Shown here: piece after piece, positions 7,169 through 26,176 of the stretch
Layout: every line of letters begins with the position of its first letter
Position numbering within the stretch: the first letter of the stretch is position 1
Assembly: GCA_026398935.1 (NCBI GenBank)
Contig: JAPLRW010000216.1
Location: 1 to 33,376 of the forward strand
DNA length: 33,376 bases
Direction: 5' to 3'
DNA from: Methylococcales bacterium
GTDB taxonomy: Bacteria; Pseudomonadota; Gammaproteobacteria; Methylococcales; Methylomonadaceae
The notes under the pieces: model-generated
What the model was told of the DNA's origin: nothing
Seen by the model: the letters and a program-made list of their open reading frames with translations, nothing else
Database searches by the model: none
Translations under genes and position numbers: made by a program

Positions 7169-8983
7169 ATGCGTATTCATGCTCTTCCTACTCAATTGGT
7201 TAATCAGATTGCCGCTGGTGAAGTGGTCGAGCGTCCCGCCTCCGTTGTTAAAGAATTGGTTGAAAATTGCTTTGATGCTGGTGCAACGCAGATTTTAATC
7301 GAGATTGAGCAAGGTGGGACGCAGCTGATAAAAATTCGGGATAATGGCTGCGGTATTGAAAAAGACGATTTACCACTCTCACTTTCCCGGCATGCCACCA
7401 GTAAAATTGCGACATTAAAGGATTTGGAGCAGGTGCTTAGTATGGGCTTTCGAGGGGAAGCGTTGCCCAGTATCAGTTCGGTGGCGCGCTTAACCTTAAT
7501 TTCACGCGTTGCTGATGCGGATTGCGCTTGGTGCGTGACGGCCGATGGACGTGAACAGGATTTTAATCCGCAACCAGATCCGCATCCTCTCGGGACTACG
7601 GTCGATGTACGGGATTTGTTTTATAACACGCCTGCCCGCCGTAAATTTTTAAAAGCGGAAAAGACTGAATTTGGGCATATTGAAACCTTAATTAAGCGCA
7701 TGGCGCTCAGCCGTTTTGATATTGGTTTTACGCTGCTGCACAATCAACGGGAAGTCCTCAACTTACGTCCGGCGAACAGTGTTTTAGAGCAAGAGCAGCG
7801 CGTGGTCAGTATTTGCGGTGCGGCGTTTATTGATAATGCCATTACTATTGATTTTGCGGCGTCAGGGTTGTCTTTGACTGGCTGGGTGGGTTTACCTACT
7901 TTTTCGCGCAGTCAGCAAGACATGCAGTTTTTTTATGTCAATGGCCGTTTGATTAAAGACCGATTGGTTGCCCACGCGTTAAAACAAGCGTATCAGGATG
8001 TGTTGTATCATGGCCGCCATCCGGTGTTTGTGCTGTATTTAACCCTTGATCCTGCCTTGGTGGATGTCAACGCGCATCCCGCTAAATTGGAAGTGCGCTT
8101 TCGCGAAGGGCGCTTGGTGCATGATTTCTTATTTACTGCTTTACACCGTAGCCTCGCCAATATCAGGCCTGCTGATCAGGTACACAGCGCTGCACAGGTG
8201 GTTGACTATGTTGATACGCCTTTAAATACCTCAACGATGACTGGAGCAGTTGCATCGTCATCCGCAAAAAATCCGGCTTATGCCTATCAATCTCGCCCGC
8301 AACAAAGTGCATTGCCGCAGGGTGTGGAAGAACACATTCAAGGGTATGCTGCGCTCTATCAAGTCGCGACGGCTAATATGCCGCCGCCAGCGCCAGATGT
8401 ACCGCCATTAGGCTATGCGGTAGCACATATACATAATATCTATATTCTGTCTGAAACGCCGGACGGCATTATTCTGGTGGATGCCCATGCGGCGCATGAA
8501 CGTGTCACGTATGAACGACTAAAACTGCTTTATCAGCAAGGCGCTATTGCCAGTCAGCCATTATTGCTGCCCATTAAAATAATCGTCAGTGCGGCGGAAG
8601 CGGATTTAGCCGAGCAGGAGCAGGCGTTTTTTTTAAACCTAGGCTTTGAGCTAACGCGTACTGGGCCTGAAACAGTGGTGTTGCGTGCTGTTCCGGCGTT
8701 ATTAGGGCAGGGCGATATGGAAGGGCTGATTCGTGATGTGTTGGCGGATATTATGGCGCAGGGTATGAGTCTGCGTATTCAGGAAAAAAGCAACGCCATC
8801 CTAGCGAGTGTTGCCTGTCATGGTTCGGTGCGCGCGCAACGGCGTTTAACCGTGCCGGAAATGAATGCCTTATTGCGGGATATGGAAAAAACCGAACGCA
8901 GCGGTCAATGTAATCATGGTCGCCCAACGTGGGTGGCACTCTCTAGGCAAGAGCTGGATAAGTTCTTTTTACGCGGGCAATAA
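7169..8983 (+). CDS. mutL: DNA mismatch repair protein MutL, endonuclease type
   Basis: Couples MutS mismatch recognition to strand removal. The 604-residue protein has an N-terminal GHKL ATPase (IAAGEVVERPASVVKELVEN, DNGCGI, GFRGEALPSISSV), a transducer region with VNAHPAKLEVRF, a linker of about 80 residues rich in Ala, Gln and Pro, and a C-terminal dimerisation domain. The C-terminal domain has the metal-dependent endonuclease pattern D-x-HA-x2-E-x4-E at about residues 438-449 (DAHAAHERVTYE; Ala where the consensus has Gln). Other parts are ACHGSV and CNHGRP near the C-terminus, where CPHGRP is the consensus. The protein therefore probably nicks DNA itself, unlike E. coli MutL, which relies on MutH. 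The start is 32 bases after tpx. Confidence 0.95.
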   Translation: MRIHALPTQLVNQIAAGEVVERPASVVKELVENCFDAGATQILIEIEQGGTQLIKIRDNGCGIEKDDLPLSLSRHATSKIATLKDLEQVLSMGFRGEALPSISSVARLTLISRVADADCAWCVTADGREQDFNPQPDPHPLGTTVDVRDLFYNTPARRKFLKAEKTEFGHIETLIKRMALSRFDIGFTLLHNQREVLNLRPANSVLEQEQRVVSICGAAFIDNAITIDFAASGLSLTGWVGLPTFSRSQQDMQFFYVNGRLIKDRLVAHALKQAYQDVLYHGRHPVFVLYLTLDPALVDVNAHPAKLEVRFREGRLVHDFLFTALHRSLANIRPADQVHSAAQVVDYVDTPLNTSTMTGAVASSSAKNPAYAYQSRPQQSALPQGVEEHIQGYAALYQVATANMPPPAPDVPPLGYAVAHIHNIYILSETPDGIILVDAHAAHERVTYERLKLLYQQGAIASQPLLLPIKIIVSAAEADLAEQEQAFFLNLGFELTRTGPETVVLRAVPALLGQGDMEGLIRDVLADIMAQGMSLRIQEKSNAILASVACHGSVRAQRRLTVPEMNALLRDMEKTERSGQCNHGRPTWVALSRQELDKFFLRGQ

Positions 8984-9047
8984 GTGCAGCAAGCGGGTTG
9001 AACACCTGTTCTTACGGGCGTATTTTTAGTAAGCGCCGCTCATTTCT

Positions 9048-9098
9048 CTGTAAGCGGTGTAAAAAAACCATACAGTGGTTGTTTTACACCGCTTACAG
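9048..9098. terminator. 51-bp near-perfect hairpin after mutL, possible terminator or enhancer site
   Basis: Left arm CTGTAAGCGGTGTAAAA and right arm TTTTACACCGCTTACAG pair perfectly over 17 bp. The inner bases AAACCA/TGGTTG extend this to 23 bp with one mismatch and a TACAG loop. It lies 65 bases after mutL and about 80 bases upstream of the sigma-54-type promoter. It may end mutL transcription. Alternatively, being a palindrome centred about 104 bases before the -24 element, it may be an activator binding site. The stem is not followed by a long T run, which weakens the terminator reading. Confidence 0.6.
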
Positions 9099-9175
9099 AT
9101 TTGTCATTCCAAGCATTCTGTCCAGATAAGCTTATAAATTACTTTTAATCAATTGCTTGTAAAAAATACTAATAG

Positions 9176-9190
9176 TGGCACAGCGATTGC
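9176..9190 (+). promoter_or_regulatory. Sigma-54 (RpoN) type -24/-12 promoter for sulP
   Basis: TGGCAC at 9176-9181, five bases, then TTGC at 9187-9190. The -24 GG and -12 GC are separated by exactly the 10 bases the sigma-54 consensus requires. Transcription would start near 9201-9203, leaving a 45-base leader before the sulP ATG at 9248. The NtrC-type activator encoded at 18530-19921 carries the GAFTGA motif needed to work with sigma-54 and is the obvious candidate regulator (inference). Confidence 0.8.
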
Positions 9191-9247
9191 TTTCTGCTTA
9201 AGTAGTGAGTAACCAGCAACGATTTTTTTTAAAAGTAGAGGGTATAT

Positions 9248-10885
9248 ATGAGTGATCTTTCTCAGTCTTTAGAAGAGCCAAAAACGGGCTTAGCGGGATT
9301 AAAAGAAAACTGGCGCAGTGATTTATTGTCTGGTTTCTTAGTGTTCCTCATTGCGTTGCCGTTGTGTTTAGGTATTTCGATGGCGTCGGGTTTTCCGCCT
9401 TCCGCAGGGATAATTACCGCCATTATCGGTGGAATAATTGTCTCGCGCATCAGTGGGTCATTCATTACCATTAACGGCCCTGCTGCTGGTTTAATTGTGG
9501 TGGTATTGGATGCCGTTCAGGCATTGGGAGAGGGCGATGCGATGGCGGGTTATCGCTATACGTTAGCCGCTATTGTCATCGCGAGTGTGTTGCAGATACT
9601 CATGGGGGTTTTTAAAGCCGGGCGACTCAGCTCCTTTTTCCCCGCATCGGTCATTCATGGCATGTTGGCGGCGATTGGTATCATTATCATGGCGAAGCAA
9701 ATCCATGTGGTATTGGGAACGACGCCGGAGAAAGGCAGTAGCTTGTTTTCAACCATTGCACAGATTCCGCACAGTATTATGAATCTTAATCCGGAAATTG
9801 CCATTATTGGTCTTAGCGGGTTAGTGATTCTGATTATCTGGTCGCTGCTTAAAAATCCTACCTTAAAAATGATTCCTGCACCGCTGATTGTGGTGTTGGT
9901 GGGTATTGGTCTGGCGAAATATTTTGATCTTGATCATGAACACATGTATTTGTTCCTGCCAGATGCGCATTTTTTACCGCATCATGAGGAAACCGTCGGG
10001 CCGAAATTTTTAGTCGCAATTTCTGAAAATTTCATGTCCAGTTTTTACTTTCCTGATTTTTCTAAGATTACCAGTTTGGAGTTTTGGGAAGCGGTAGTGA
10101 CACGTCATTCTAATCTGGATAAAGATTTAACAGCGGTTGGTGCGGGTAACTTGTTGGCTGGCTTAATCGGTGGTTTGCCGATGATTGCTGAAATCGTGCG
10201 GAGTTCTGCTAATGTTAACAACGGTGCAAAAACCAGTTGGGCTAACTTTTTTCACGGTGCATTGTTATTGTTATTCGTTGTCTTGTTTCCACGCTTGATT
10301 CACAGTATTCCTTTGTCGGCATTAGCGGCATTGTTGGTGTTTACCGGTTTTCGTTTGGCATCACCAAAAGAGTTTGCCAAAGTGATGGGTATTGGTAAAG
10401 AACAGTTGTTTATGTTTTTAGTCACCATTGTCGGGGTGTTAGCGACTGACTTATTGGTAGGGGTGGTGATTGGTATTTTTACCAAATTTACTATCCATAT
10501 GTTGCGCGGCGTTAGGCTGAATAATCTCTTCAAAATTCATTTCGTTGTCGAGCATATAGATGATAAAACCATTCTGGTGGAAATCGTTGGCGCGGCTATT
10601 TTTTCTAACTTTATTGCTTTAAAAAATGCCTTGGCGCAACTGGAGCCGGGTAAGCGAGTGGTCTTTCAGTTAAATAATGCCTATATGATTGATCACACGG
10701 TCATGGAATTTTTGCATGATTTTGAGCATAACTATGCAACGCATGGCGGCGGAACGTGTGAGTTTATTGGTATGGAAACACACGATACCTATTCTAAGCA
10801 TCCTTTGGCGGTGCGTAGAATGAAGACAGATAATATGACTCGGCGTAAAAGCGATCACCATGGCGTGAGTCAAACGCCGCTTTAA
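9248..10885 (+). CDS. SulP-family anion/bicarbonate transporter with STAS domain
   Basis: A 545-residue secondary transporter of the SulP (SLC26-like) family. Members carry sulfate, bicarbonate or other anions, and several next to DabAB genes are DIC transporters (established for chemolithoautotrophs). The membrane region of about 12-14 helices starts with the typical DLLSGFLVFLIALPLCLGIS and GSFITINGPAAGLIVV. A cytoplasmic STAS domain occupies roughly residues 425-520 (TILVEIVGAAIFSNF, VVFQLNNAYMIDHTVMEFL). The helix before the STAS domain contains FTGFRLASPKEF, a SulP hallmark. A sigma-54-type promoter lies 58 bases upstream, and dabA follows after 164 bases. Bicarbonate as substrate is inferred from context. 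Sulfate cannot be excluded from sequence alone. Confidence 0.88.
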   Translation: MSDLSQSLEEPKTGLAGLKENWRSDLLSGFLVFLIALPLCLGISMASGFPPSAGIITAIIGGIIVSRISGSFITINGPAAGLIVVVLDAVQALGEGDAMAGYRYTLAAIVIASVLQILMGVFKAGRLSSFFPASVIHGMLAAIGIIIMAKQIHVVLGTTPEKGSSLFSTIAQIPHSIMNLNPEIAIIGLSGLVILIIWSLLKNPTLKMIPAPLIVVLVGIGLAKYFDLDHEHMYLFLPDAHFLPHHEETVGPKFLVAISENFMSSFYFPDFSKITSLEFWEAVVTRHSNLDKDLTAVGAGNLLAGLIGGLPMIAEIVRSSANVNNGAKTSWANFFHGALLLLFVVLFPRLIHSIPLSALAALLVFTGFRLASPKEFAKVMGIGKEQLFMFLVTIVGVLATDLLVGVVIGIFTKFTIHMLRGVRLNNLFKIHFVVEHIDDKTILVEIVGAAIFSNFIALKNALAQLEPGKRVVFQLNNAYMIDHTVMEFLHDFEHNYATHGGGTCEFIGMETHDTYSKHPLAVRRMKTDNMTRRKSDHHGVSQTPL

Positions 10886-11049: not shown

Positions 11050-13635
11050 ATGACTGTAGCGCCTCCAAAAATCAGTTTAGATGACTATTCAGATACGCAG
11101 ACGTTTGATCTGAACGCTGCCATTCAGCATATTTCACATTGGTTACCCACACAGGGGCCGATTAAAGATTTTATTCATCACAACACCCTGCATGCCGTAC
11201 AGCACCATCCGTTTCATAAAGGGGTTGCAATAGCGGCAAAAGTATTTGGCGCGCGCAGCTACTTACCGGCAGCCGATTACCAAGCTATGCATCAGCAAGG
11301 TAGAATTAAAAACTTTGCTATTAACTGGGCTATTGCACATTCGGGCTGTGCGTCGGCAGAAATTCCTGCGTTATGGAAAAAATTATTCGCTGTTGACAGT
11401 TGTGATCATTACCCTCCCGTTTCATTGGCTAATCACGGTATTCGTAATAACTGGCTTACCTATCTGGAAGTGGATTTAAACTCTTTGGCACATCCCCTTT
11501 TATTTCGTTTGCTTGCTAATTTTCTGGATCAAGGTATCAGTCATTGGACGCTATCAAAAGCCGATGAGTCTTTTTGGGAATGTGTGTGGCGGTTGACGCA
11601 TAACAGTTTGTTGCCGTTGTATCCGTTTAATGATGCGAGTGTGCGTGACTTGTTAAGCCTGCCTACTCATGACGTTATTTTGTTTTGTTTACAAAGAATA
11701 GTAGGCTCTCCAGCATGGTATGAACAGTATCTGTTGGAGATGTTACTAGCGCATCCCGGTTGGGCTGGGATGGTGCGGCTTATTGAGCTTGACCCTAACG
11801 CCTTGCTGGAGCATCGTCAGATTTCGTTGGAACAACTCATTGCGGTAGAACTGCTTGCTGAATTAGCCATCTTAACTAAAAAAAGAGGCGTGAATTTTGT
11901 CAGCATTGCGCAAACACCCCATGCGAATGATATAGCGTTATTGAGCGATTATGAGGATAAGGCCATAGTGCCATTAACCTTAAAGGTGTGGCATGAAGCA
12001 ATGGAGTATTCATTGCACAGTGAGTTGTTGATTGCACTAAAGTCGCAAAATGGCTCGACGAAACCTAAAGAGACGCCCATTGTACAAGCTTTCTTTTGTA
12101 TCGACGACCGTGAATGTTCGCTACGCCGTTACTTGGAAGAGCTTAATCCTGCCATTGAAACGTTCGGTGCCGCAGGTTTTTTTGGTATTGATTTTTTGTA
12201 TCAAGGCTTTGATGATGCGTATCCGGTTGCACAGTGTCCCAATATCCTGACGCCAAAGCACTTGATTATGGAATCTAATCTGCAGCCAGAGATTGATAAA
12301 AATGCGGTTAGTGAAGGGTTATCTGATTTGCATATTAAACCGCATTCGCTGTTTCGTGGCTGGCTGTTTACGCAAATATTGGGGCTGGGCTATGCCGTGC
12401 GAATGCTCTGGGATGTTTTTCGTCCTGGCTCACAGTTATTGAGCATTAAAAAATTAAGCGAAGTAGATGCGCATACGCATTTGCATTTGTTGCGGGAGAA
12501 TGACGAGCTGACGGCTGATGGGAAATTATTGGGCTTTTCGTTGACGGAAATGGCCGATAAGATTGAAGGCTTACTGCGTAATATTGGTTTAACTAAAGAC
12601 TTTGCGCCGCTGGTGGTGGTGGTTGCGCATGGCTCAAGCAGCACTAATAATCCGCATTTTGCCGCGTATGATTGTGGTGCATGTTCAGGGAAACCGGGTG
12701 CGCCAAATGCGCGTGCTTTTGCTTGGATGGCCAATCATGAAGGCGTACGTGAAATATTGCGCGAACGGGGCATTGATATTCCCGTCAGCAGTCATTTTGT
12801 CGCGGCACTCCACAATACTAGCCGTGATGAAATTACCTATTTTGATAAACACCTTTATGAACAGTATCCAACGGATGTATTGCAGATTTTTCAAAAAACT
12901 ATGCAGGATGCCTTGCAAAAAAACGCGCTTGAACGCTGCCGGTGGTTTGAACTAGGGCCTACAGCACATTCTGGCGATGAGGCACATGAGCATGTTGTGA
13001 CCCGTGCCTCGTCGATATTTGAACCGCGCCCGGAACTTAACCATTCTAACAATCTTTACTGTGTGGTTGGTAGACGCGCCTTAACGCGGGGATTATTTCT
13101 GGATAGACGCTCTTTTTTACACTCTTACGATGCAGCTACTGATCCTGAAGGGCAATTGATCGTCAAGATTTTATCGGCGATTATTCCGGTTTGTGGCGGG
13201 ATTAACCTTGAGTATATGTTCTCACGGATTGATAATTCGATTTATGGTGCGGGCACTAAGCTGCCGCATAACGTGATTGGTTTACTCGGTGTTGCTAATG
13301 GTGTGGAAGGTGATTTACGTACGGGTCTGCCATCACAAATGATTGAGGTACACGAACCCTCACGGTTATTGATTGTGATAGAGCAAAAAACCGCGTTATT
13401 GGATAAAGCTTTTGCAAAATTGGACGCCGCATTAAAAGAATGGCTGGATCATGACTGGGTGAGAGTGGTCGCGTGCCATCCCGATACACGCGAATTGTTT
13501 TTCTATCACCGTACTGGTTGGGAAGCTGTTGAGTTGCCCTTAGATGCTATAACACCAATTGCCCGTCATTCAGAGCATATTATTGTCGGGCAACAAGCAA
13601 CTATTCCAGTACATTTACTTCGGAGCAACGCATGA
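11050..13635 (+). CDS. dabA: DabA (UPF0753/DUF2309), inorganic-carbon uptake subunit
   Basis: The 861-residue soluble, zinc-binding partner of the DabAB complex, which is thought to hydrate CO2 to bicarbonate vectorially and so accumulate DIC in the cytoplasm. It has the beta-carbonic-anhydrase-like site: Cys350 and Asp352 in FFCIDDRE, His527 in VVVAHGSS, and Cys542 in YDCGACSG. The spacing matches the residues shown to matter in Halothiobacillus DabA (C351, D353, H524, C539). The N-terminus has the family motif IKDFIHHNTLHAVQHHPF. The 3' end overlaps dabB by 4 bases (ATGA), so the two are translationally coupled. Here dabA precedes dabB, whereas many DAB operons have the reverse order. Confidence 0.93.
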   Translation: MTVAPPKISLDDYSDTQTFDLNAAIQHISHWLPTQGPIKDFIHHNTLHAVQHHPFHKGVAIAAKVFGARSYLPAADYQAMHQQGRIKNFAINWAIAHSGCASAEIPALWKKLFAVDSCDHYPPVSLANHGIRNNWLTYLEVDLNSLAHPLLFRLLANFLDQGISHWTLSKADESFWECVWRLTHNSLLPLYPFNDASVRDLLSLPTHDVILFCLQRIVGSPAWYEQYLLEMLLAHPGWAGMVRLIELDPNALLEHRQISLEQLIAVELLAELAILTKKRGVNFVSIAQTPHANDIALLSDYEDKAIVPLTLKVWHEAMEYSLHSELLIALKSQNGSTKPKETPIVQAFFCIDDRECSLRRYLEELNPAIETFGAAGFFGIDFLYQGFDDAYPVAQCPNILTPKHLIMESNLQPEIDKNAVSEGLSDLHIKPHSLFRGWLFTQILGLGYAVRMLWDVFRPGSQLLSIKKLSEVDAHTHLHLLRENDELTADGKLLGFSLTEMADKIEGLLRNIGLTKDFAPLVVVVAHGSSSTNNPHFAAYDCGACSGKPGAPNARAFAWMANHEGVREILRERGIDIPVSSHFVAALHNTSRDEITYFDKHLYEQYPTDVLQIFQKTMQDALQKNALERCRWFELGPTAHSGDEAHEHVVTRASSIFEPRPELNHSNNLYCVVGRRALTRGLFLDRRSFLHSYDAATDPEGQLIVKILSAIIPVCGGINLEYMFSRIDNSIYGAGTKLPHNVIGLLGVANGVEGDLRTGLPSQMIEVHEPSRLLIVIEQKTALLDKAFAKLDAALKEWLDHDWVRVVACHPDTRELFFYHRTGWEAVELPLDAITPIARHSEHIIVGQQATIPVHLLRSNA

Positions 13636-15518
13636 ATAGCTTATTGCTCGCCTGCCAGATTTTACCGCTGTTAGGGCTGGTGCTGATTGCCTTATTGGGC
13701 AACAGTGAGAAAAAAATTGCGGCTATCAGTTTCTGGACAACCCATGCGATGGGACTGAGCATTATTAGCTTGTTGGTGATTTGGGTCAGTCTTGGTTTTC
13801 CGGATCATGAATATGAGTGGTTTACGCTTTATGAGCGCGGCAGTTATCAATTTCCGATTCTTTTTTATCTTGATCGGATCAGTGCTGTGTATCTGTTTGC
13901 GGTATGGCTGATTTTTTCAGTGATCGTGCGTTACTGCCGAAATTATTTGCATCGCGAAGCAGGGTATAAACGCTTTTTTATGACCATCTTCGGTTTTGCG
14001 TTAGGCTTGAACATGGTGGTACTGTCCGGTTCGATTGATATGTTGTTCGCTGGTTGGGAAATCGTGGGTATTTCATCTTTTTTATTGATTGCCTTTTATC
14101 GGCATCGTGTGCAACCCGTGCGTAATGCGTTAAGAGCGTACACCGTGTACCGGTTTTGCGATATTGGCTTATTGCTTGGCGCGTGGATGAGTCATCTGTT
14201 GTTTCATGAAAGTGACCATTTCAGTAATTTATCGGTATTGTTCGAACACAGTGCGCCGACACCGGCCAGTTATCCGGCGTTATTTTTGATGTCGATGCTG
14301 ATTTTTATCGCGGCATCCGGGAAATCAGCACAATTTCCTTTTTGTTTTTGGTTGCCTAGAGCGATGGAAGGGCCGACGCCCTCCAGTGCGATTTTTTACG
14401 GGGCATTATCCGTGCATTTAGGCGTATTTTTGTTACTGCGCACCATGCCGATATGGAGTTATCACTACCTGACACGTACGGTTTTGTTTCTCATTGGTTT
14501 TCTAACGGTGATTATTGCCAGTCTTGCGGAAAAAACCCAATCGAATATTAAAGGTCAAGTGGCGTATGCGTCAATTACGCAAGTGGGCTTCATGTTTATG
14601 GAGCTGGCTTTTGGCTTGGATATGCTGGTACTCGTGCATTTTCTGGGTAACGCTTTTTTACGCTGTTACCAGTTATTAGTATCGCCATCCATTGTCGCGC
14701 ATATGCTGAGAATTGAAGGGGCTATTGATCGTACCCCTGATGTTAAACCATCGTCGATGCAAACCTATTTACCGCTATCCATTCGTGATACGTTGCCGGA
14801 GGTTTTACAAAATACGTTGTATGTATTCGCTTTGCAGGAAGGTAATTTGGAGCTACTGGTACGCTCAATGCTTTGGATACCGTTGAAGAAAATAGGTGCT
14901 AATATTAACCGTGTGCGTGTTAGCGTGAAAATCAGTGTGGGGGTAAGTGCTTTGCTGGTATTAATCGTGCTATTAAAAACCGCGCTTATTAATAGCACGT
15001 ATCTCGCTGCTCCGGTTGCGTTAGCAATGGTGATGGCATCCTTAAGTGCGTTTAGCCAGAAACACAGTTTTAGGCAGGTTTGGAGTGCGGTTGCGTTGAG
15101 TGCGCTATTAGCGGGCGGCTCTGTATGGTTGTTACAACCAACCGCGTTACAAGACCTACTCTTTTTTAGTACGGGTATTATTCCTTCATGGTTACTGGGA
15201 ATGTTGGTACTCAGTAAGCTGCCGAAAAAAGAGAATTTCATCGATTCCCCTTTTGCTTATCGAGGCATGGCAGAAACTAACCCGAAATTATCCTTAGTAT
15301 TGTTTATCAGCTTTTTGGGATTGGTGGGATTTCCGATTACCCCAGCATTTATTGGTGAAGATTTACTGCTGTATCATGCCAGTAGCCAGTATGCGTGGAT
15401 GGCGGCATTGATTGCGATTTGCTTTGTTATTAATGGTATTGCGGCGGCACGCGTCTTCTTAAGAATATGCATGGGAAGACCCTCGGAAATAAGTGAACTT
15501 TTAAAGCATACGGCTTAA
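13632..15518 (+). CDS. dabB: DabB, NuoL/MrpA-like membrane subunit of the DIC transporter
   Basis: A 628-residue polytopic membrane protein of the proton-conducting antiporter family (NADH-quinone oxidoreductase subunit 5-like). In DabAB it is the membrane partner that couples cation influx to CO2 hydration by DabA. Conserved antiporter features are visible: MDMLFAGWEIVGISSFLLIAFYRHR-like segment with Glu in helix 5 (AGWEIVG), SAQFPFCFWLPRAMEGPTPSSA in helix 7-8, and the later SNIKGQVAYASITQVGFM. The conserved antiporter residues therefore appear retained. It is coupled to dabA by the ATGA overlap. The C-terminal third is more divergent. It is unlikely to be part of a true complex I, since no other nuo or mrp gene is near. 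Confidence 0.9.
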   Translation: MNSLLLACQILPLLGLVLIALLGNSEKKIAAISFWTTHAMGLSIISLLVIWVSLGFPDHEYEWFTLYERGSYQFPILFYLDRISAVYLFAVWLIFSVIVRYCRNYLHREAGYKRFFMTIFGFALGLNMVVLSGSIDMLFAGWEIVGISSFLLIAFYRHRVQPVRNALRAYTVYRFCDIGLLLGAWMSHLLFHESDHFSNLSVLFEHSAPTPASYPALFLMSMLIFIAASGKSAQFPFCFWLPRAMEGPTPSSAIFYGALSVHLGVFLLLRTMPIWSYHYLTRTVLFLIGFLTVIIASLAEKTQSNIKGQVAYASITQVGFMFMELAFGLDMLVLVHFLGNAFLRCYQLLVSPSIVAHMLRIEGAIDRTPDVKPSSMQTYLPLSIRDTLPEVLQNTLYVFALQEGNLELLVRSMLWIPLKKIGANINRVRVSVKISVGVSALLVLIVLLKTALINSTYLAAPVALAMVMASLSAFSQKHSFRQVWSAVALSALLAGGSVWLLQPTALQDLLFFSTGIIPSWLLGMLVLSKLPKKENFIDSPFAYRGMAETNPKLSLVLFISFLGLVGFPITPAFIGEDLLLYHASSQYAWMAALIAICFVINGIAAARVFLRICMGRPSEISELLKHTA

Positions 15519-15600: not shown

Positions 15601-16338
15601 ATGAATAAAGTCCCGCACATTACACTCTATTTTTGGATCATTAAAATCTGCGCCACTACTTTGGGTGAAACCGCCGGCGATCTATTGTCGATGACACTGA
15701 ACGTCGGTTACGGGCTGAGTTCCATTATGCTGTTGGGGTTGTTTTTGGTGTCTGTGATCTTGCAGCTAAAGTCGAGCCACTTTCACCCCGTGCTTTACTG
15801 GACGGTCATTATTACCACCAGTACGGCGGGTACGACCCTGTCCGATTTTATGGATAGAACCTTAGGGCTTGGTTACGCGAATGGATCACTGCTTTTGGGG
15901 GCGGGTTTATTGCTGGTATTGGCGATTTGGCATTTTAGTGAAAAGACATTATCGGTTAATAACATTAAAACTACCAAAGTAGAGCTTTTCTATTGGACGG
16001 CGATATTATTTTCCAATACGTTGGGAACGGCTTTAGGCGACTTTTTAGCGGATGATTCTGGTCTTGGTTTTTTGGGGGGTGCGGTGCTTATTGCGGGGTT
16101 AATTGGTTTAGTTATCGTTGCGGCATATAGCACAAGCATTAATCGTGTCTTATTATTTTGGTTGGCATTTGTGTTAACGCGCCCCTTTGGAGCAACTTTT
16201 GGTGATCTACTTACCAAGCCCCTTGAAAAAGGCGGCTTTGATTTTGGTACTGTTGGCGCCTCTTTAATTCTCGGCTCGTTGCTGATACTGTTTATTTTTT
16301 ATTCAATGATTGTCGATAAACGTTTGGCAGATAAGTAG
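15601..16338 (+). CDS. COG4705-type membrane protein with four internal repeats
   Basis: A 245-residue integral membrane protein, probably of eight helices, belonging to the uncharacterised COG4705 group. Four copies of a motif of about 55-60 residues occur, each centred on a T/A-x-G-x-x-x-G/S-D-F/L core: TTLGETAGDLLS, TTAGTTLSDFMD, NTLGTALGDFLA and RPFGATFGDLLT. After three of them comes a Gly-rich LGYG/LGFL-type stretch. The regularly spaced Asp residues within membrane helices suggest a pore or cation pathway. The gene starts 82 bases after dabB on the same strand with no terminator between, so it is likely part of the DIC operon. The function is not known. A role as an accessory channel is inference. 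Confidence 0.8.
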   Translation: MNKVPHITLYFWIIKICATTLGETAGDLLSMTLNVGYGLSSIMLLGLFLVSVILQLKSSHFHPVLYWTVIITTSTAGTTLSDFMDRTLGLGYANGSLLLGAGLLLVLAIWHFSEKTLSVNNIKTTKVELFYWTAILFSNTLGTALGDFLADDSGLGFLGGAVLIAGLIGLVIVAAYSTSINRVLLFWLAFVLTRPFGATFGDLLTKPLEKGGFDFGTVGASLILGSLLILFIFYSMIVDKRLADK

Positions 16339-17060: not shown

Positions 17061-18533
17061 ATGAAAGCAAGAAATTCTCGTCCCTTACAGCACCGTGCAT
17101 TAGCGTTTTTGGTACTGTTGCTCTTGGCGCTAGTAACGTTGGGCGGCATGATTTGGCGAAATCTGCATCACTTCAATACCGTGTTGTCGCATGTTAATTA
17201 TTCCCACAGTGTACAAAATGTATCGGTTAAATTACAGCAATCGCTGATTGAATATTTAACGGAAGCGGTACCCGTGACCTATCCTGAAGAATTAACCAAA
17301 ACCTTTGCGGCGTTAAACCAAACCATGGTTGAAATGGATGCGGTTATCGCGGATGATGGTTTTTTATCAGCCGATACCCGCGTGAGTATGGAAACGCTTA
17401 GAAACATACTCAGTGGTGGTGGTAATCTGGATAAGGTTGAAAAGAATGTTCAATTAATTAATGCCTTAAAAGTATTGACGATGGCGTTGGATAATGAAGA
17501 GATGGTGCGTGATCATTTGTTAGAAAAAATCAGTCATGATACCGAAACGGAATTGTACATGGCATCGATTACCTTAATGGTCATTTTAATTGTGGCGGTG
17601 TTATTTTTATACCGCAGACTTTTACACCCACTCAATGATCTTAAACAGTTATTGCAACGCTTAACGGAAGAAAGTTATATCCCGTTTGCAACTGATCACC
17701 TTGATCCTTTGATTTTGCCAGTGTTTAAAAGTTATAACGAAATGGTTAAACATCTTGCGGAATTAGAAGAAGCGAATAAGTCACATGCACAATCGTTGCA
17801 AAAAGAAGTGCGTATGGCCACGCAAGCGTTACTGGAACAGCAGGTCAGTTTAGCCAGAGCTGAACGTTTAGCGGCGATAGGCGAGGTGGCGGCAGAGTTG
17901 GCGCACGAAATTCGTAATCCGTTAGCAGGCATCCAAATGGCATTCAGTAATTTACGGCGTGAAATTGATGATACGCAACAATGCGAACGTATGGAATTGA
18001 TTGGATCGGAACTGAAACGTCTAGCAAAATTATCTAATGATATGCTTGATCAAAGTCGTCATGTACCGGAATCGGTGAGCCAATTTGATGTATCGGTGTT
18101 AATCCGTGATTTAGTGACCTTAACGCGGTATCAAGTGCCGGAAGTCATTCAATTAACCGTGGATGTGCCTGGCTCTTTAATGGTCAATTTGCCCGAAAGT
18201 GGCTTACGTCAGGCGTTGCTAAATTTACTGTTGAACGCGGCGGATGCTATGGAAGGTGAGGCAGGAGCGGTATGTATTCAGGCATTCAAAGATAAACAGG
18301 GTCTATGTCTTAACGTGCGGGATAACGGCTCCGGTTTTTCGCAAGATATGCTGGACAATGGCATTCGTCCTTTCCGTACCAGTCGTCAGCGGGGCACGGG
18401 TCTGGGTTTGTCTATGGTACAGCGATTTGTAAAAGATGTCGGCGGCAGTATTAAATTATCCAATCAACAATCCCATGGGGCGTGTGTAACCCTGTTGTTA
18501 CCGACAGACTGTATTGCTGGAGCGTTATCATGA
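17061..18533 (+). CDS. Membrane sensor histidine kinase (NtrB-like family)
   Basis: A 490-residue sensor kinase. TM1 is at about residues 12-32, a periplasmic helical sensor domain of about 135 residues follows, and TM2 is at about 168-186. After a HAMP-like linker (RRLLHPLNDLKQLLQRL) comes a coiled coil leading to the HisKA box AELAHEIRNPLAG with phospho-acceptor His282. The catalytic domain has the N box (LLNLLLNAADAM), G1 (DNGSGF) and G2 (GTGLGLSMVQRF). ATG 17061 is preferred over the upstream 17013 start because it has the closer GAGG-type ribosome site and begins a basic segment before TM1. The stop overlaps the next gene by 4 bases. Its signal is unknown; position beside DIC genes suggests a carbon- or ion-related cue (inference). 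Confidence 0.92.
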   Translation: MKARNSRPLQHRALAFLVLLLLALVTLGGMIWRNLHHFNTVLSHVNYSHSVQNVSVKLQQSLIEYLTEAVPVTYPEELTKTFAALNQTMVEMDAVIADDGFLSADTRVSMETLRNILSGGGNLDKVEKNVQLINALKVLTMALDNEEMVRDHLLEKISHDTETELYMASITLMVILIVAVLFLYRRLLHPLNDLKQLLQRLTEESYIPFATDHLDPLILPVFKSYNEMVKHLAELEEANKSHAQSLQKEVRMATQALLEQQVSLARAERLAAIGEVAAELAHEIRNPLAGIQMAFSNLRREIDDTQQCERMELIGSELKRLAKLSNDMLDQSRHVPESVSQFDVSVLIRDLVTLTRYQVPEVIQLTVDVPGSLMVNLPESGLRQALLNLLLNAADAMEGEAGAVCIQAFKDKQGLCLNVRDNGSGFSQDMLDNGIRPFRTSRQRGTGLGLSMVQRFVKDVGGSIKLSNQQSHGACVTLLLPTDCIAGALS

Positions 18534-19921
18534 TTGAAACATTACTGATTATTGAAGATGAAAAATTATTAGGGACTGAACTGTCCCGTCATTATCGACA
18601 ATTGGGTTGGGAAGTGGTGCTGGCCAATACACTGGCAAAAGCAAAAGAAGTATTAATTAATCAAGGCTTGGAGCCACTGCTGATTCTGTCCGATATGAAT
18701 TTACCGGATGGGCATGCGTTGGATTTTATGGAAATCCATAAAAAAAGCGTGAGTTATGCGGAATGGGTGTTTCTAACGGGTTACGGCAGTGTGCCTGATT
18801 CCGTACGGGCGTTGCGCTTGGGCGCTTATGATTTTCTGGAAAAACCCTGTGATCTGGAGCGATTAGACTTAATTGTTACCAGCGCTGCGCGCAGTGCGGC
18901 TATTCAACGACGGGTTATTGATCAAACCAAACAACGGCATCGCCGTTATATGCCTGATGCGTATGTGGGTAAAAGTGAACAGGCACAGCAGGTGAGAGAG
19001 ATATTAACCCGTCTCACGCAAGTGCCTTTTTCAGCATTGATTATCGGCGGGGAAACCGGTACGGGCAAGGGCTTGGCTGCACGAATATTGCATTATGGCG
19101 GATCGCGTGCGCAACAACCCATGATCGAAGTCAATTGTGCCGCGCTGCCCAGAGAATTACTGGAATCAGAGTTATTTGGACATGAACCGGGGGCGTTTAC
19201 CGGCGCCGCAGGTCGACATCGGGGCTTATTGGAACAAGCCGATGGGGGAACGTTATTTATGGATGAAATCGGGGAAATGCCGCTGGATTTGCAGGCCAAA
19301 TTACTCAAAGCCATTGAAGACCATAAAGTGCGACGCTTAGGCGGCGAAAAAGAAATCAACGTTGATGTGCAAATCGTTACGGCCAGTAACCGTGATTTAG
19401 AAAAAATGGCTACGGAGGGCAGTTTTCGTGCGGACTTGTACCATCGCCTGAGTGTGTTTCGGGTGATATTACCGCCGTTGCGTATGGCAACCGAAGATTT
19501 AGATGAGCTGGTGCCGATATTTGTGGCGGAATACAATGCGAAAGCCGGGCGGCATGTAAAAGATATTCCGGCGGCGGTATGGAATAAACTAAAAGCGCAT
19601 CATTGGCCTGGAAATGTTCGGGAGTTACGCAATGTGATTGAACGCTGTGTGTTATTTTCAGAAGGAGTCACCTTTCCAATCATGTGGTTACAATTGCCCG
19701 GTCAAGAACAGACGCCAGTGGCAGATAATCGCGTCATGGACAACAGTATTATTTTGCCTTTAGATGGCAGTATGGCGCTGGATGATATGGATCGCTTTAT
19801 CATTAAAACCGCTTTAGAGCGCGCTGACAATAACCTCACGGCTGCCGCGAGAGCGCTAGGCGCAACCCGCGAAACATTGCGCTATCGAGTACGAAAATAC
19901 AATTTACAAAGTGTTGATTAA
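18530..19921 (+). CDS. NtrC-type sigma-54-dependent response regulator
   Basis: A 463-residue activator of sigma-54 RNA polymerase. Receiver domain residues 1-120 have acidic pocket E9/D10/E11, phospho-acceptor Asp55 in LSDMNLPDG, Thr83 and Lys105. The AAA+ domain has Walker A GETGTGKG at about 174-181, the sigma-54-contacting GAFTGA at 221-226, GTLFMDEIGEMPLD and arginine-finger region. A C-terminal Fis-type helix-turn-helix follows (NNLTAAARALGATRETLRYR). The start at 18530 overlaps the kinase stop (ATGA). A longer frame from 18482 is an artefact inside the kinase gene. The perfect-spacing sigma-54 promoter before sulP, in the same neighbourhood, is its most likely target (inference). No other sigma-54 promoter was found in intergenic DNA here. 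Confidence 0.94.
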   Translation: MIETLLIIEDEKLLGTELSRHYRQLGWEVVLANTLAKAKEVLINQGLEPLLILSDMNLPDGHALDFMEIHKKSVSYAEWVFLTGYGSVPDSVRALRLGAYDFLEKPCDLERLDLIVTSAARSAAIQRRVIDQTKQRHRRYMPDAYVGKSEQAQQVREILTRLTQVPFSALIIGGETGTGKGLAARILHYGGSRAQQPMIEVNCAALPRELLESELFGHEPGAFTGAAGRHRGLLEQADGGTLFMDEIGEMPLDLQAKLLKAIEDHKVRRLGGEKEINVDVQIVTASNRDLEKMATEGSFRADLYHRLSVFRVILPPLRMATEDLDELVPIFVAEYNAKAGRHVKDIPAAVWNKLKAHHWPGNVRELRNVIERCVLFSEGVTFPIMWLQLPGQEQTPVADNRVMDNSIILPLDGSMALDDMDRFIIKTALERADNNLTAAARALGATRETLRYRVRKYNLQSVD

Positions 19922-20038: not shown

Positions 20039-21852
<1,814 letters not shown>

Positions 21853-21854
21853 TC

Positions 21855-22127
21855 ATGAACCCGCAACAACTGCTAAAAAAACAAATTGAAAGCCAGATTA
21901 AACGCATCAAAAAAGCCGAACGTGAACGCCCGACCTTACTCTCACAAACCATCTATATCGGCACTTTAGGTTTAGTGATGGTCTTGCCGATTGTCGGTGG
22001 TGCGTATTTAGGGCATTGGCTGGACAGTTTAGTGACCGGCTATTCAACACGCTGGACGCTGAGCTTATTGTTTGGTGGCGTGGTGCTGGGCGTGTTTAAT
22101 GTGTATTTCTTGATTAAGGATGGATGA
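21855..22127 (+). CDS. atpQ: N-ATPase accessory membrane protein AtpQ (AtpI-like)
   Basis: A 90-residue protein with a basic, helical N-terminus (KKQIESQIKRIKKAERER) and two membrane helices (about 31-51 and 63-85). The second is preceded by the GHWLDSL motif typical of AtpI/AtpQ proteins. In N-ATPase operons AtpQ and AtpR are small membrane proteins encoded between atpC and atpB and probably help c-ring assembly or cation handling. A strong AGGAGG site lies just upstream. AtpQ normally leads straight into atpR. Here only a 24-codon frame starting ATGA on the atpQ stop (22124-22198) remains before the island begins. Confidence 0.85.
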   Translation: MNPQQLLKKQIESQIKRIKKAERERPTLLSQTIYIGTLGLVMVLPIVGGAYLGHWLDSLVTGYSTRWTLSLLFGGVVLGVFNVYFLIKDG

Positions 22128-22244
22128 AGGCTGCAACACAGCGTAATATTTGCGCCTTATTCATAATTTTTATATGCAATAGTAAAGATGACGACTAACG
22201 CATTTGGAATTATCAGTCATTAGAAATTAGGTGGAAAAACTTGT

Positions 22245-22469
22245 ATGAACATTGAAACTATCCGTCACGAAGCATTGTTGCTGCCCCCACAAGAGCGGGC
22301 ACAATTGGCAGAGCAATTATTGTCTAGTCTTGATACTTTAATGGAAACAGAGGATGAACAGCTTTGGTTTCAAGAAGCCGCGCGTCGTGCAGAAGAAATG
22401 GACAGCGGATTGGTGCAGCGTATCCCCGCCGATGTGGTTTATCAGGAAGCCTTGGCACTCTTAAGATGA
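22245..22469 (+). CDS. TIGR02574-type addiction-module antitoxin
   Basis: A 74-residue antitoxin-like protein. The start MNIETIRHEALLLPPQERAQLAEQLLSSL is the hallmark of the addiction-module component family TIGR02574 (stability determinant), whose partners are ParE/RelE toxins. The rest is acidic and flexible (ETEDEQLWFQEAARRAEEMDSG), ending IPADVVYQEALALLR. A GGTGG-type ribosome site precedes ATG 22245. Its stop overlaps an ATG by one ATGA unit, the usual coupling to a toxin gene, but that toxin is destroyed (see next entry). It is now an orphan antitoxin. Confidence 0.85.
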   Translation: MNIETIRHEALLLPPQERAQLAEQLLSSLDTLMETEDEQLWFQEAARRAEEMDSGLVQRIPADVVYQEALALLR

Positions 22470-22587
22470 AGTGGGTAGTCAATATACGCTGAGTGATCAA
22501 TTTATGTAGCGCATACACCGCGTGGCTTATTTTTGCTCGCGACCATCTGCCGCTTATTGGCAAAAAACGGATACAAGAATAGCTATC
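22466..22587 (+). pseudogene. Remnant of a ParE/RelE-type toxin gene
   Basis: The frame that starts on the antitoxin stop codon reads MKWVVNIR and then a stop. About 25 bases further, another frame reads RIHRVAYFCSRPSAAYWQK, which resembles the usual C-terminus of ParE/RelE toxins (V-x-A-x-x-x-R-R-x-P-x-Y-W-x-x-R). Only about 120 bases remain where roughly 290 are expected, so the middle of the toxin has been deleted. Recognition rests on pattern matching of short segments. Confidence 0.55.
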
Positions 22588-22809
22588 ATGAATCAAATAA
22601 ACCCTAATAAACTGTTGCTATCAAAATGGATCGCCGTTCATCCAAAGCAAAAAGAACGCCACTTTATCGTCACCAAACTGATTCGGGCAGAAACCCCGGC
22701 CGCAGAGATTATTGCTTGCGAATTAGAAGCCGTGATCAATAACAAGGTCTACGAAATAGACTGGCAAACGCTGAAAGATAAAACGTCTTGGCAGATGGGT
22801 TGGCTTTAA
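22588..22809 (+). CDS. TIGR02450 family Trp-rich small protein
   Basis: A 73-residue cytoplasmic protein matching the TIGR02450 family in overall pattern: INPNKLLLSKW at the start, KERHFIVTKLI, ECELEAVINNKVYEIDW-type middle and WQMGWL at the end. These proteins are widespread in marine and aquatic Proteobacteria and cyanobacteria, and their function is unknown. The upstream frame from 22522 belongs to the toxin remnant, so ATG 22588 is the start. It is the only gene of the island that is not obviously related to toxin or nuclease functions. Confidence 0.85.
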   Translation: MNQINPNKLLLSKWIAVHPKQKERHFIVTKLIRAETPAAEIIACELEAVINNKVYEIDWQTLKDKTSWQMGWL

Positions 22810-22830
22810 GAGGGTTTTTTAAATATATGT

Positions 22831-23013
22831 TAACCCGTAAGGCGGAACGCGATAGCGGTTCCGCCGAATGGCACGGAGCGGTAAACACAAACAGAGGCTA
22901 CATTGATGAACATTGCAGAAAGAATTTATGAAACCGTCAAAACGCTGCCAGAACAAATGGCCTGCGAAGTGTTGCATTTTGCTGAAAGTTTAAAAGCTAA
23001 ACAAGCGGAGGAA
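22831..23013 (+). repeat. 183-bp direct repeat, left copy
   Basis: Matches 24474-24656 at 177 of 183 positions with no gaps. It contains a hairpin (GGCGGAAC / GTTCCGCC, 22841-22865), the ribosome-binding region and the first 36 codons of a DUF2281 antitoxin. The hairpin portion looks like a dispersed intergenic repeat. Confidence 0.95.
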
Positions 23014-23205
23014 AGTGCTATTGCGGTGATTGAATGCAAATTTGACATTAATACAAAAAAAAATTTAAAGGAAACATTTGTTCAAGCGAAGTCCTATGCG
23101 TTAAGGTTACAAGCTTCAATATTAGCTTTAGCAGCAAGACGAGGATTATGGATATTCCGTCAAAATAACGATGGATTTTCCATAGACTATACGAGGTTTC
23201 GCTAG
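22906..23205 (+). pseudogene. Chimeric ORF: DUF2281 antitoxin start joined to a nuclease-like fragment
   Basis: A 99-residue frame. Residues 1-36 (MNIAERIYETVKTLPEQMAC...) are nearly identical to the antitoxin at 24549-24755. At base 23014 the similarity ends and the frame continues in unrelated sequence: VIECKFDINTKKNL, then QAKSYALRLQASILALAARRGLWIF. This resembles part of an HsdR N-terminal or similar PD-(D/E)xK nuclease domain, in which E-x-K is a core motif and Q-A-x-x-Y-A is common. After the stop at 23203-23205 a shifted frame to 23294 gives IGKRAIDALIAQRNRIRKR, possibly the continuation after a frameshift. Probably a recombination scar and not a working gene. Confidence 0.6.
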
Positions 23206-23370
23206 TGATTGGCAAACGCGCTATTGATGCATTGATTGCACAGCGAAATCGTATTCGGAAAAGAACTGGGGGCATAGTCGAATTAAAAGCCTAGCTTCAA
23301 TGCTTCAGCGAAGCTTCGCTATCGCTAAGGCCGCCGATATTTGCGTTAGACTGTAGTGTGATTATAAAAA

Positions 23371-24483
23371 ATGATAAATCAATTAACAGATATTAGTGAA
23401 ATTAGTTTTGATGATAGCTATAAAAATCTATTTCAAGTCGATGATGCACGTCTTAGGGCAGATGCACTTAAACACTCAGTTGTTCCAAGGCTTCGCGTGG
23501 TTTTGAATGGCAGCATTGCTTTTATAAAAAATATCTACAACCTGGATGCTTTAGAAGATTCTCGTGTCTCATGCTATCCAAACTTTAGACCCAAGCGAGA
23601 AAATGAGCTTACACTCCTTTATCAATCTGCATACGCAAGTTTAGGTGGGAAACGGGATAAAGAGAAGTGGCGAGGCTTTAATCGTAAAGGCGGAAAAGTC
23701 GTTCAGCTTCTGCCATTTCGTTATGGCTACATTCTGGAGGAAGAAGGCCTGTATTTTCAATTGGAAAATTACTGGCTAAAAGGTTTGACGGACGAATCAC
23801 ACAAAAAATTATTCGATTTTCACTTGCAGTATGAATCATTGATTCATAGCTTATGTTATAGAGCAACTATTAAGCCTTTGTTTTATCATGGTAATGACTG
23901 TGAACCTATCTCGACTCTGAGAGAGCATTATGATTGGATGACAGAAAGAGGTTTGTTTGATAACTTTTTTGTTTCTGAACACCTTAAATATCCTATTGCA
24001 CCTGATGACCTTAATAGGGCTATAGAAGGTTACGTTATTTTTTATCCCATCTATGATTCTTACATTCAAATTGCAATGGGTAAACCTGTTCGCTTTCTTG
24101 AGCTTGTAGGCAAGCTGAATAAATGGTTAAAGGAAATTGAGGAATTTGACGAAGAGCAGACAGAAGATACTGAAGAATTTACAAATAATCTTTCTGAAGA
24201 TGAACTTTCAAAGGCAAGGATAGCTGCCGAACAACAAATAAAGGTTATGCCCTCAATCCGTTGGCAAGTTTTTCAGAGAGATAATTGGAAATGCGTTGCT
24301 TGTGGTCGGGATTCACACGATGACATAATCCTTCATGTTGACCATATTATCCCACGCTCGAAAGGAGGACAGGACACGCTTGAGAATTTTCAAACGTTAT
24401 GTCATGTTTGTAATATTGGGAAAAGTAATAAAGATACGACTGACCTTAGACGTGTTAACGCCTGTACGGCCGATAACCCGTAA
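23371..24483 (+). CDS. HNH endonuclease with uncharacterised N-terminal domain
   Basis: A 370-residue protein. The C-terminal 85 residues form a clear HNH nuclease: RWQVFQRDNWKCVACGR, HVDHIIPRSKGG, LENFQTLCHVCNIGKSNKD. The two CxxC pairs would hold zinc, and the His/Asn residues are catalytic. The first 270 residues (for example FDDSYKNLFQVDDARLRADALKHSVVPRL) I do not recognise. They may be a recognition or effector-sensing domain. An acidic linker (EEFDEEQTEDTEEF) separates the two. Such nucleases often act in restriction or phage defence, but this is not shown here. No methyltransferase is adjacent. The last three codons lie in the right copy of the 183-bp repeat. A/T-rich composition suggests foreign origin. 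Confidence 0.8.
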   Translation: MINQLTDISEISFDDSYKNLFQVDDARLRADALKHSVVPRLRVVLNGSIAFIKNIYNLDALEDSRVSCYPNFRPKRENELTLLYQSAYASLGGKRDKEKWRGFNRKGGKVVQLLPFRYGYILEEEGLYFQLENYWLKGLTDESHKKLFDFHLQYESLIHSLCYRATIKPLFYHGNDCEPISTLREHYDWMTERGLFDNFFVSEHLKYPIAPDDLNRAIEGYVIFYPIYDSYIQIAMGKPVRFLELVGKLNKWLKEIEEFDEEQTEDTEEFTNNLSEDELSKARIAAEQQIKVMPSIRWQVFQRDNWKCVACGRDSHDDIILHVDHIIPRSKGGQDTLENFQTLCHVCNIGKSNKDTTDLRRVNACTADNP

Positions 24484-24656
24484 GGCGGAACGCGATAGCG
24501 GTTCCGCCGAATGGCACGGAGCAGCAAACACAAACAGAGGCTACATTGATGAATATTGCAGAAAAAATTTATGAAACCGTCAAAACGCTGCCAGAACAAA
24601 CGGCCTGCGAAGTGTTGCATTTTGCTGAAAGTTTAAAAGCTAAACAAGCGGAAGAA
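24474..24656 (+). repeat. 183-bp direct repeat, right copy
   Basis: Second copy of 22831-23013, offset by 1643 bases, with 6 mismatches. It contains the same hairpin (24484-24508) and the start of the intact DUF2281 antitoxin. The two copies bracket the nuclease-like fragment and the HNH gene, and could recombine to delete or amplify that segment. Confidence 0.95.
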
Positions 24657-24755
24657 GAGGCTGGCCGCCGAAAAAAAGCCTTAGCCACCTTGGCAAAATT
24701 TCGAGGTCGCTTCAACGCTGAAAAATTTAACCGCGAAGACTGTTATGACCGCTAG
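24549..24755 (+). CDS. DUF2281 / VapB-like antitoxin
   Basis: A 68-residue antitoxin-like protein: MNIAEKIYETVKTLPEQTACEVLHFAESLKAK is the DUF2281 signature, in which a short helical domain starts with 'Y..v..LP...~..vl.F...L'. A basic tail follows (RRKKALATLAKFRGRFNAEKFNRED) that would wrap the toxin. It overlaps the PIN toxin gene by 11 bases, the standard arrangement of a type II module. ATG 24549 is preferred over TTG 24546. The start sits inside the 183-bp repeat, so this protein shares its first 36 residues with the chimeric frame at 22906. Confidence 0.88.
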   Translation: MNIAEKIYETVKTLPEQTACEVLHFAESLKAKQAEEEAGRRKKALATLAKFRGRFNAEKFNREDCYDR

Positions 24756-25143
24756 AATTTTTGCCGATACCAATCTGTTTATCTACGCGGAATCAAAAGA
24801 ACAGGCAAAGTCTGCTCGCGCTATCGAGATTATTCAGGACTCCCCAGTGATCAGCACCCAAGTTATCAATGAAACCGTTAGCGTTTTGATCAAAAAACAT
24901 CATTTTTTGTTATCAGAAGCCCATGAAATTGCCGAAAGTTTATTGGATTTGTGTGAGGTCGTGCCTGTCGATAGCCTTACCATTCGCAAGGCGATAAATT
25001 TGGCAAAGCGTTATTCGTTATCGCATTGGGACAGTCTGATTGTTGCCGCTGCATTACTTGCTGGTTGTGAAAAACTGTATTCGGAAGATATGCAGCATGG
25101 TCAAATTTTTGATAACCAATTGACAGTGGTTAATCCCTTTTAA
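24745..25143 (+). CDS. PIN-domain ribonuclease toxin (VapC-like)
   Basis: A 132-residue PIN domain. Toxins of this family cleave tRNA or rRNA with Mg2+ held by acidic residues. Visible are Asp8 in IFADTNLFIYA, Glu43 in VINETVSVL, Asp96 in SHWDSLIVAAA and the Glu114/Asp115 pair in LYSEDMQHGQ, so the active site appears complete. It overlaps the DUF2281 antitoxin by 11 bases. It is the last gene of the island; atpB follows after 79 bases. This module is the only one in the island that looks intact, and could keep the island in place by addiction (inference). Confidence 0.92.
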   Translation: MTARIFADTNLFIYAESKEQAKSARAIEIIQDSPVISTQVINETVSVLIKKHHFLLSEAHEIAESLLDLCEVVPVDSLTIRKAINLAKRYSLSHWDSLIVAAALLAGCEKLYSEDMQHGQIFDNQLTVVNPF

Positions 25144-25222
25144 GGCGATTCTGTTTCAATAAACTACAAAATAAATGCTGGATTATTTTAATCAAACGCC
25201 AATTCAACGCTGAGATGCATGT

Positions 25223-25888: not shown

Positions 25889-25891
25889 GCT

Positions 25892-26161
25892 ATGTCAGAA
25901 ATTGCTATGATTGTTCTCGGCTCCAGTGTAGCCGCAGTCTTTGGTATTGCTATCGGGGTAATGTTGCCCGCTTTCGCGATGGGTAAAGCCATTGGCAGCG
26001 CGCTGGATGCCTTATCTCGGCAACCGGAATCGGAACGTTCGATTATGCGTACTTTGTTTATCGGTTTGGCGATGATTGAGTCATTGGCGATTTATTGTCT
26101 GGTGATTATTTTAATCGTGTTATTCAAGAATCCTTTATTGGAATACATTGTCACTAAATAG
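25892..26161 (+). CDS. atpE: N-ATPase subunit c
   Basis: An 89-residue hairpin that forms the rotor ring. The ion-binding carboxylate is Glu63 in LAMIESLAIYCLV, and the polar loop is LSRQPES. Aligned to the Na+-binding Ilyobacter c subunit, Glu63, Ser64 and Tyr68 are kept, but the helix-1 Gln ligand is replaced by Met30. Helix 1 also has a Pro (Pro26) and fewer of the usual GxGxGxG glycines (GIAIGVMLPAFAMGKAIG). Pumping of Na+ is therefore uncertain. It starts 3 bases after atpB and is followed by atpF after 15 bases. Confidence 0.93.
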   Translation: MSEIAMIVLGSSVAAVFGIAIGVMLPAFAMGKAIGSALDALSRQPESERSIMRTLFIGLAMIESLAIYCLVIILIVLFKNPLLEYIVTK

Positions 26162-26176
26162 ACGACGAAGGTTGCT

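Follow-up and report, generated by a model that had tools for sequence, protein, structure and literature searches.

The sulP, dabA and dabB genes carried by a 33,376-nucleotide stretch of DNA from a Methylococcales bacterium (the window, meaning the whole stretch that was analysed) are very probably driven by RpoN together with a linked NtrC-type histidine kinase (HK) and response regulator (RR), as members of a regulon whose probable signal is a shortage of inorganic carbon (Ci). What is observed is a sequence architecture that is conserved and that both co-occurs with the regulator and is linked to it. The host is very probably a gammaproteobacterial methanotroph, because the 44 named DabA loci in our collection derive almost entirely from methanotrophs (Methylococcaceae, Methylovulum, Methylobacter and others), one being a MAG labelled Comamonadaceae.

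The gene group follows a gene named mutL by reading and runs in the order SulP, DabA, DabB, DUF347, HK, RR and an ATPase operon, the genes from sulP to the RR gene all lying on the forward strand. The first encodes a SulP-family anion (probable bicarbonate) transporter (9248-10885), which is assigned to the family by PF00916 and scores below the cut-off of the BicA equivalog (116 of 880 bits). DabA, the inorganic carbon transporter subunit (11050-13635; PF10070, 738 bits), adjoins a DabB-like proton-channel subunit of antiporter type (13632-15518; PF00361/PF00662), which is the combination that defines a DAB complex. A DUF347 membrane protein (15601-16338) follows; DUF347 genes also stand beside SulP/DAB genes at L020/L107 and L043 (L, G and C denote our loci, genomes and contigs) and beside a second SulP-like gene in a congener (L161:2607-4379), whose product has a CaMKII_AD/SnoaL-like C-terminal domain and whose upstream region shows the same layout as that described below. 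The sensor histidine kinase (17061-18533), the sensor part of which is modelled as helical, is followed by the NtrC-family response regulator, a predicted activator with a receiver, an AAA+ domain with GAFTGA and a Fis-type HTH. A sequence-only reading of this DNA had placed such a GAFTGA activator about 9 kb downstream of the promoter, and it is indeed encoded at 18530-19921, 9.3 kb away. The ATPase operon after the RR gene (20051-29227) reads like that of an N-type, possibly sodium-pumping, ATPase; HNH (23371-24483) and PIN (24745-25143) genes lie between its subunit genes as if inserted, and in a congener (L092) HK-RR adjoins an atpD-like gene that is 86% identical.

The sequence TGGCACAGCGATTGC at 9176-9190 on the forward strand agrees with the -24/-12 consensus TGGCAC-N5-TTGC in ten of ten positions, with 10 bases between GG and GC, and TTT lies directly 3' of it. 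Both the letters and the spacing given by the sequence-only reading proved exact, and its claim that this was the sole intergenic match can be extended, as neither strand of the 33-kb window holds another exact match. When up to two mismatches are allowed the window holds 43 matches compared to a shuffle mean of 40.4, so that within the window the perfect match alone is informative, and sites with two mismatches were discarded as occurring at chance frequency. The element lies 72 bp upstream of the sulP ATG at 9248, is conserved in relatives and, counting C9190 as -12, predicts a transcript start (+1) at 9202, inside the interval of 9201-9203 that had been proposed. The genome encodes RpoN (PF04552, 225 bits, G000:C266). 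A sigma-70-like element was not found in 8950-9300, which says little because shuffles average just 0.7 there. A second copy of TGGCACAGCGATTGC is present at L001 (G000:C48:455-469), where the approximately 450 bases remaining on the contig hold no ORF of at least 80 aa.

Upstream of this promoter element lie two predicted sites of an NtrC-type regulator, which are conserved in relatives: UAS1 (GGTG-TAAAAA-AACC, 9056-9069), centred at about -140 from the predicted +1, and UAS2 (GGTT-GTTTTA-CACC, 9077-9090), the centres being 21 bp, or two DNA turns, apart. The two share the motif GGTK-N6-MACC, form the sole exact pair with a 7-bp gap in the 3.6-Mb genome, begin 120 bp before the 9176-9190 site and are held within a long inverted repeat (9047-9099) with 24-nt arms that are 96% complementary. 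By eye, the upstream regions of relatives contain a palindrome GGTT-N6-AACC, often doubled, with centres 21-23 bp apart. Between the pair and the promoter, AATCAATTGCTTG at 9147-9159 (forward strand) matches the IHF consensus, WATCAANNNNTTR, in nine of nine positions, a score reached by about 1% of 200 shuffled spacers. In 20 of the 29 genomes that have both pair and site, the spacer contains an IHF match scoring 8/9 or 9/9, where shuffles would lead one to expect 5.6; in 13 of the 29 such a match begins 28-31 bp upstream of -24. The predicted UAS pair, the putative IHF site and the -24/-12 element make up the textbook sigma-54 layout; the sequence-only reading had noted the last of these and neither of the first two. 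A search of 61 genomes for the pair with one mismatch matched 38, many with nonzero controls and several through one repeated motif resembling conserved coding sequence, and its raw tallies were not used, although individual matches chosen by eye were added to the set of loci; two further pairs in the window's own genome (C216 and C245) were dropped, a sigma-54 site of 8/10 being absent nearby.

RR orthologues and SulP were sought in 61 genomes, and a sulP upstream region was scored as positive when it held a site scoring 8/10 or better, GG and GC being obligatory, 40-80 bp before the start and a pair scoring 14/16 or better 140-200 bp before it, these position windows having been fixed after the first loci were viewed. 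Of the 37 RR-positive genomes, 29, the window's included, have pair and site ahead of their best sulP, compared to none of the six in which the RR was not found (Fisher p ~5e-4, a value that is indicative only, as the genomes are not phylogenetically independent). Among regions first viewed after the ranges had emerged, 12 of 13 RR-positive regions pass, G004 being the exception, and none of six RR-negative regions does; G013 is excluded from this count, its region being L059, which had been viewed earlier. Within a single genus, G010 has the RR and the sites whereas in G036 neither was found, and in G024, where no RR was found, a SulP 78% identical to that of the window is encoded without the site. 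In 6800 dinucleotide shuffles of the RR-positive upstream regions the site occurred in 0.6%, the pair in 0.015% and both together in none. The RR-positive genomes that fail are G003, G004, G018, G019, G021, G040, G054 and G057, some of them solely through their distance or a single weak element: in G003 a pair of 15/16 is accompanied by a site of 9/10, but at 108 bp from the start, and in G019 a pair of 13/16 by a site of 8/10 at 130 bp. G047 was counted as RR-positive on an RR fragment (116 aa, 85% identical) on the same contig as sulP; before it was moved and G003 and G019 were added, the counts were 28/34 and 1/7. G002 and G055 were left out, the RR being present and SulP not being found at E 1e-90, while G058 (through a UAS match) and G040 entered by loci outside the SulP search, and without both the comparison is 28/35 to 0/6 (p ~4e-4).

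The dabA upstream regions were examined from a starting set of 49 DabA loci, of which three duplicates, five truncated loci and three with less than 300 bp upstream were left out. Where dabA is not directly preceded by sulP, a sigma-54 site of at least 8/10 is present in 27 of 31 loci (2.5% in shuffles), whereas it is present in none of the seven in which dabA directly follows sulP, as in the window; precedence was judged from gene order, so that other upstream genes of the same operon are possible. The 31 loci comprise L037 (no site), L038 (8/10) and a subset of 29, in which the site occurs in 26 (ten of these at 9/10 or better) and a UAS of at least 7/8 precedes dabA in 21, compared to 14% in shuffles. 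Among the loci with short upstream sequence, L027 has a site of 8/10, L045 one of 9/10 and L040 none. Since, in addition, sulP and dabA are divergent in L043 and L044 with an own site for each, the predicted sigma-54 site accompanies the leading gene.

Spacing provides a further line of evidence. A total of 1.83 Mb of loci, some chosen for a UAS pair and none for distance, was scanned for a pair and a site 75-134 bp apart, which yielded 64 matches, 58 of them distinct and 49 of these outside called ORFs; the nine inside called ORFs, some chance-like (L046, L099, L113) and others resembling over-long ORF calls, were excluded from the test. Measured from the start of the pair to the site (n=49), the spacing was 118-124 bp in 28 cases, 107-113 bp in ten, 98-100 bp in four, 86-89 bp in five, and 79 and 134 bp in one each, thereby clustering near 88, 99, 110 and 121 bp, about 11 bp from one cluster to the next (Rayleigh R 0.66 for an 11-bp period, with a significance inflated by relatedness). 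The predicted enhancers and promoters are helically phased, as DNA looping from one fixed face of the helix would predict.

The RR has the domains of NtrC-family architecture (PF00072, PF00158, PF02954). An alignment of 21 of the 46 orthologues, down to 56% identity, shows no variation in D55 (the phospho-Asp), Walker A, GAFTGA or key HTH residues. None of the best 25 NCBIfam models for either HK or RR attains its cut-off. As modelled, the kinase sensor (mean pLDDT 72.8, pTM 0.44) is a helical bundle for which the closest PDB match is NarQ (E 3.6e-3), with QseE among the top matches (E 0.024), and the modelled resemblance to NarQ/QseE is held with low-to-moderate confidence. In 23 of 38 loci, HK-RR shares a stretch of up to 20 kb with DabA or with a SulP of 43% identity or more, in varied orders, SulP, HK and RR being direct neighbours in L102 and L104 and Hyf-like genes standing between SulP and HK-RR in L093 and L099; neither was seen in the other 15, where some stretches stop at contig ends. 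As only 5 of 34 HK upstream regions hold a sigma-54 site of 8/10, the regulator itself would mostly lack such a promoter.

Beyond the order, RR matches at E 1e-120 occur in at least 20 of the 369 genomes sampled from the class, a lower bound because four candidates per genome were scored; one match is from the window's own genome and one from the same order, two are 47-48% identical and the rest 57-67%. In 18 stretches around RR orthologues outside Methylococcales, no SulP of more than 21% identity was seen, which suggests that the regulator is older than its carbon role, or that its role is broader. Eight of these 18 stretches have a UAS-like pair and site, some probably by chance, and in one of the 18 a gene for cytochrome bd subunit I (L249:6531-8023) lies near the RR orthologue, with a UAS-like pair and a sigma-54 site near the gene start.

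Other genes carry all or part of the same layout. In the window's genome, a Hyf/Nuo-like operon (G000:C251; L181:4173-8184, L185) is preceded by a pair of 14/16 and a site of 9/10, 121 bp apart; its large subunit appears to lack cysteines at the two places where nickel ligands would be expected, and the complex is possibly a partner in Ci uptake. In L169, SulP and then Hyf-like genes follow a single such promoter. YfdX genes have a pair upstream in three genomes: one in the window's genome (C230; L179:3343-4281) perhaps shares the layout, with a pair of 14/16 located 120 bp before a weak site of 7/10, and in relatives a YfdX gene has a pair with an 8/10 site at 123 bp (L170:4697-5689) or with a 10/10 site at 194 bp, an unusual spacing (L171:5078-6016). 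In two genomes the full layout is also found 247 and 349 bp, respectively, before L024:4842-6764, a polysaccharide deacetylase/GHL13 gene by Pfam, and L100:4981-6903, which looks alike.

Based on these data, a mechanism may be proposed in which regulator binding, activation, the role of IHF, the extent of the operon and the signal are inferred. The HK would phosphorylate the neighbouring RR, which would then bind the paired palindromes at 9056-9090; IHF would bend the DNA at 9147-9159, and the AAA+/GAFTGA domain of the RR would open RpoN polymerase at about 9202. The promoter at 9176-9190 would serve sulP-dabA-dabB, and possibly the DUF347 gene as well. The signal is probably Ci shortage, as the targets are SulP and DAB. 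Control of dissolved inorganic carbon transporters by RpoN and a linked two-component system had been put forward from the window's sequence, and this proposal is supported, at the level of comparative sequence analysis, by the conserved layout, the co-occurrence of the RR, the lack of sites where no RR was detected, the phasing and the dabA sites.

That the 15-mer is a chance match to the consensus in a 3.6-Mb genome can practically be dismissed: the genome holds 16 exact matches, seven of which fall within ORFs, and the reversed control pattern still yields five, but across many genera this element is conserved ahead of sulP and dabA, together with the UAS and the phasing. Exact sites outside ORFs include those upstream of nifH, nifN and nirB (all above NCBIfam cut-offs) and of one IscA-type gene, and the identified genes behind such sites are mostly of kinds expected of RpoN. 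It is very unlikely that the palindrome at 9047-9099 is the mutL terminator rather than an enhancer; it lies just 3' of mutL and could form a long RNA hairpin, but a T-run is absent 3' of it, the terminator scan picks a different stem-loop (9005-9018), and relatives have a like palindrome pair ahead of sulP, at a constant distance from -24. The palindrome could serve as both. It is also unlikely, if somewhat less so, that a sigma-54-dependent promoter is activated by another enhancer-binding protein, for example NtrC in a coupling of carbon to nitrogen, the HK-RR pair serving other genes. The genome encodes 12 proteins with a strong Sigma54_activat match, the RR and 11 others, further exact sites precede nif and nir genes, and outside Methylococcales RR orthologues stand beside other genes, one of them near that for cytochrome bd; against this, pair and promoter are absent from all six SulP genomes without a detected RR, including that with the 78% identical SulP, RR and sulP stay neighbours despite reshuffled gene orders, and the UAS is unlike the NtrC site.

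Greater weight must be given to the idea that the regulon answers to pH, proton motive force, redox state or some further signal that is not carbon, a real if lesser possibility in our view because the candidate targets include the Hyf-like complex, the YfdX genes and, in one distantly related genome, cytochrome bd; SulP and DabA are, however, the most consistent targets. Also in favour of carbon, provided that the SulP gene concerned has the layout, removal of CO2 from Methylococcus capsulatus raised the transcripts of all five carbonic anhydrases 2.0- to 3.8-fold, the largest rise (3.8-fold) being that of the one reported to lie in an operon with SulP (PMC11423575); this response is unspecific because all five rose. 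The passages of the paper that deal with CO2 removal name no regulator (PMC11423575). A more far-reaching scheme, speculative and in our estimate rather improbable as a whole, is a Methylococcales-wide sigma-54 carbon-limitation regulon in which the NarQ-like kinase would sense shortage of bicarbonate or CO2, bicarbonate being a candidate ligand as a small oxyanion like the nitrate of NarQ; one UAS would co-induce SulP, DAB and the Hyf-type complex, and the latter, without hydrogenase cysteines, would be the energy-driven partner of SulP for bicarbonate accumulation.

The preferred reading, control of SulP and DAB by RpoN and the linked HK-RR pair, has parallels among known systems. In rhizobia, DctB/DctD control dctA through an NtrC-family two-component activator, tandem UAS and a sigma-54 transporter promoter, features that the sulP system would share, while dctA serves dicarboxylate uptake and has another UAS sequence. 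Of the curated families, AtoC/AtoS score best for the RR and HK, with NtrC second for the RR, yet both proteins remain far below the cut-offs (AtoC 349 of 714, NtrC 339 of 559; AtoS 167 of 646). QseE/QseF (GlrK/GlrR) likewise combine an NtrC-type RR with sigma-54 targets, and QseE is among the structure matches of the kinase sensor, but the RR reaches 260 of 763 on the GlrR model, and the targets given for QseE/QseF are glmY and rpoE (PMC6075780). LysR-type regulators of the CbbR/CmpR kind do the same job of matching Ci uptake and fixation to supply, and differ in their sigma-70 partner from the sigma-54 and AAA+ activator predicted here. LysR proteins work with sigma-70, those of the CbbR/CmpR kind control genes of carbon fixation and carbon concentration, and LysR-type control is usual for carbon genes in textbook autotrophs; the contrast with LysR regulators drawn by the sequence-only reading is thus a fair one. 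CbbR is described as a positive regulator of cbb operons (PMC2607301).

In the open literature, no report of sigma-54 control of SulP or DAB genes was found in titles and abstracts among the matches listed, and the terms bicarbonate, SulP and Methylococc are all absent from the main text of a survey of sigma-54 regulons (PMC12316311). The mechanism is classical, whereas its deployment to place SulP and DAB under RpoN throughout a methanotroph order appears, within the open literature searched, to be new. Carboxylation in methanotrophs requires CO2, and the same literature yielded no account of the regulation of Ci uptake in these organisms. The present analysis supplies a predicted promoter with its enhancer sequence and a predicted kinase-regulator pair, all testable in culturable methanotrophs, and the regulon signature flags more candidate Ci genes, namely those of the Hyf-like complex, YfdX and DUF347. 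It points to Ci transporters that would be under RpoN, as opposed to the LysR-type control of textbook autotrophs.
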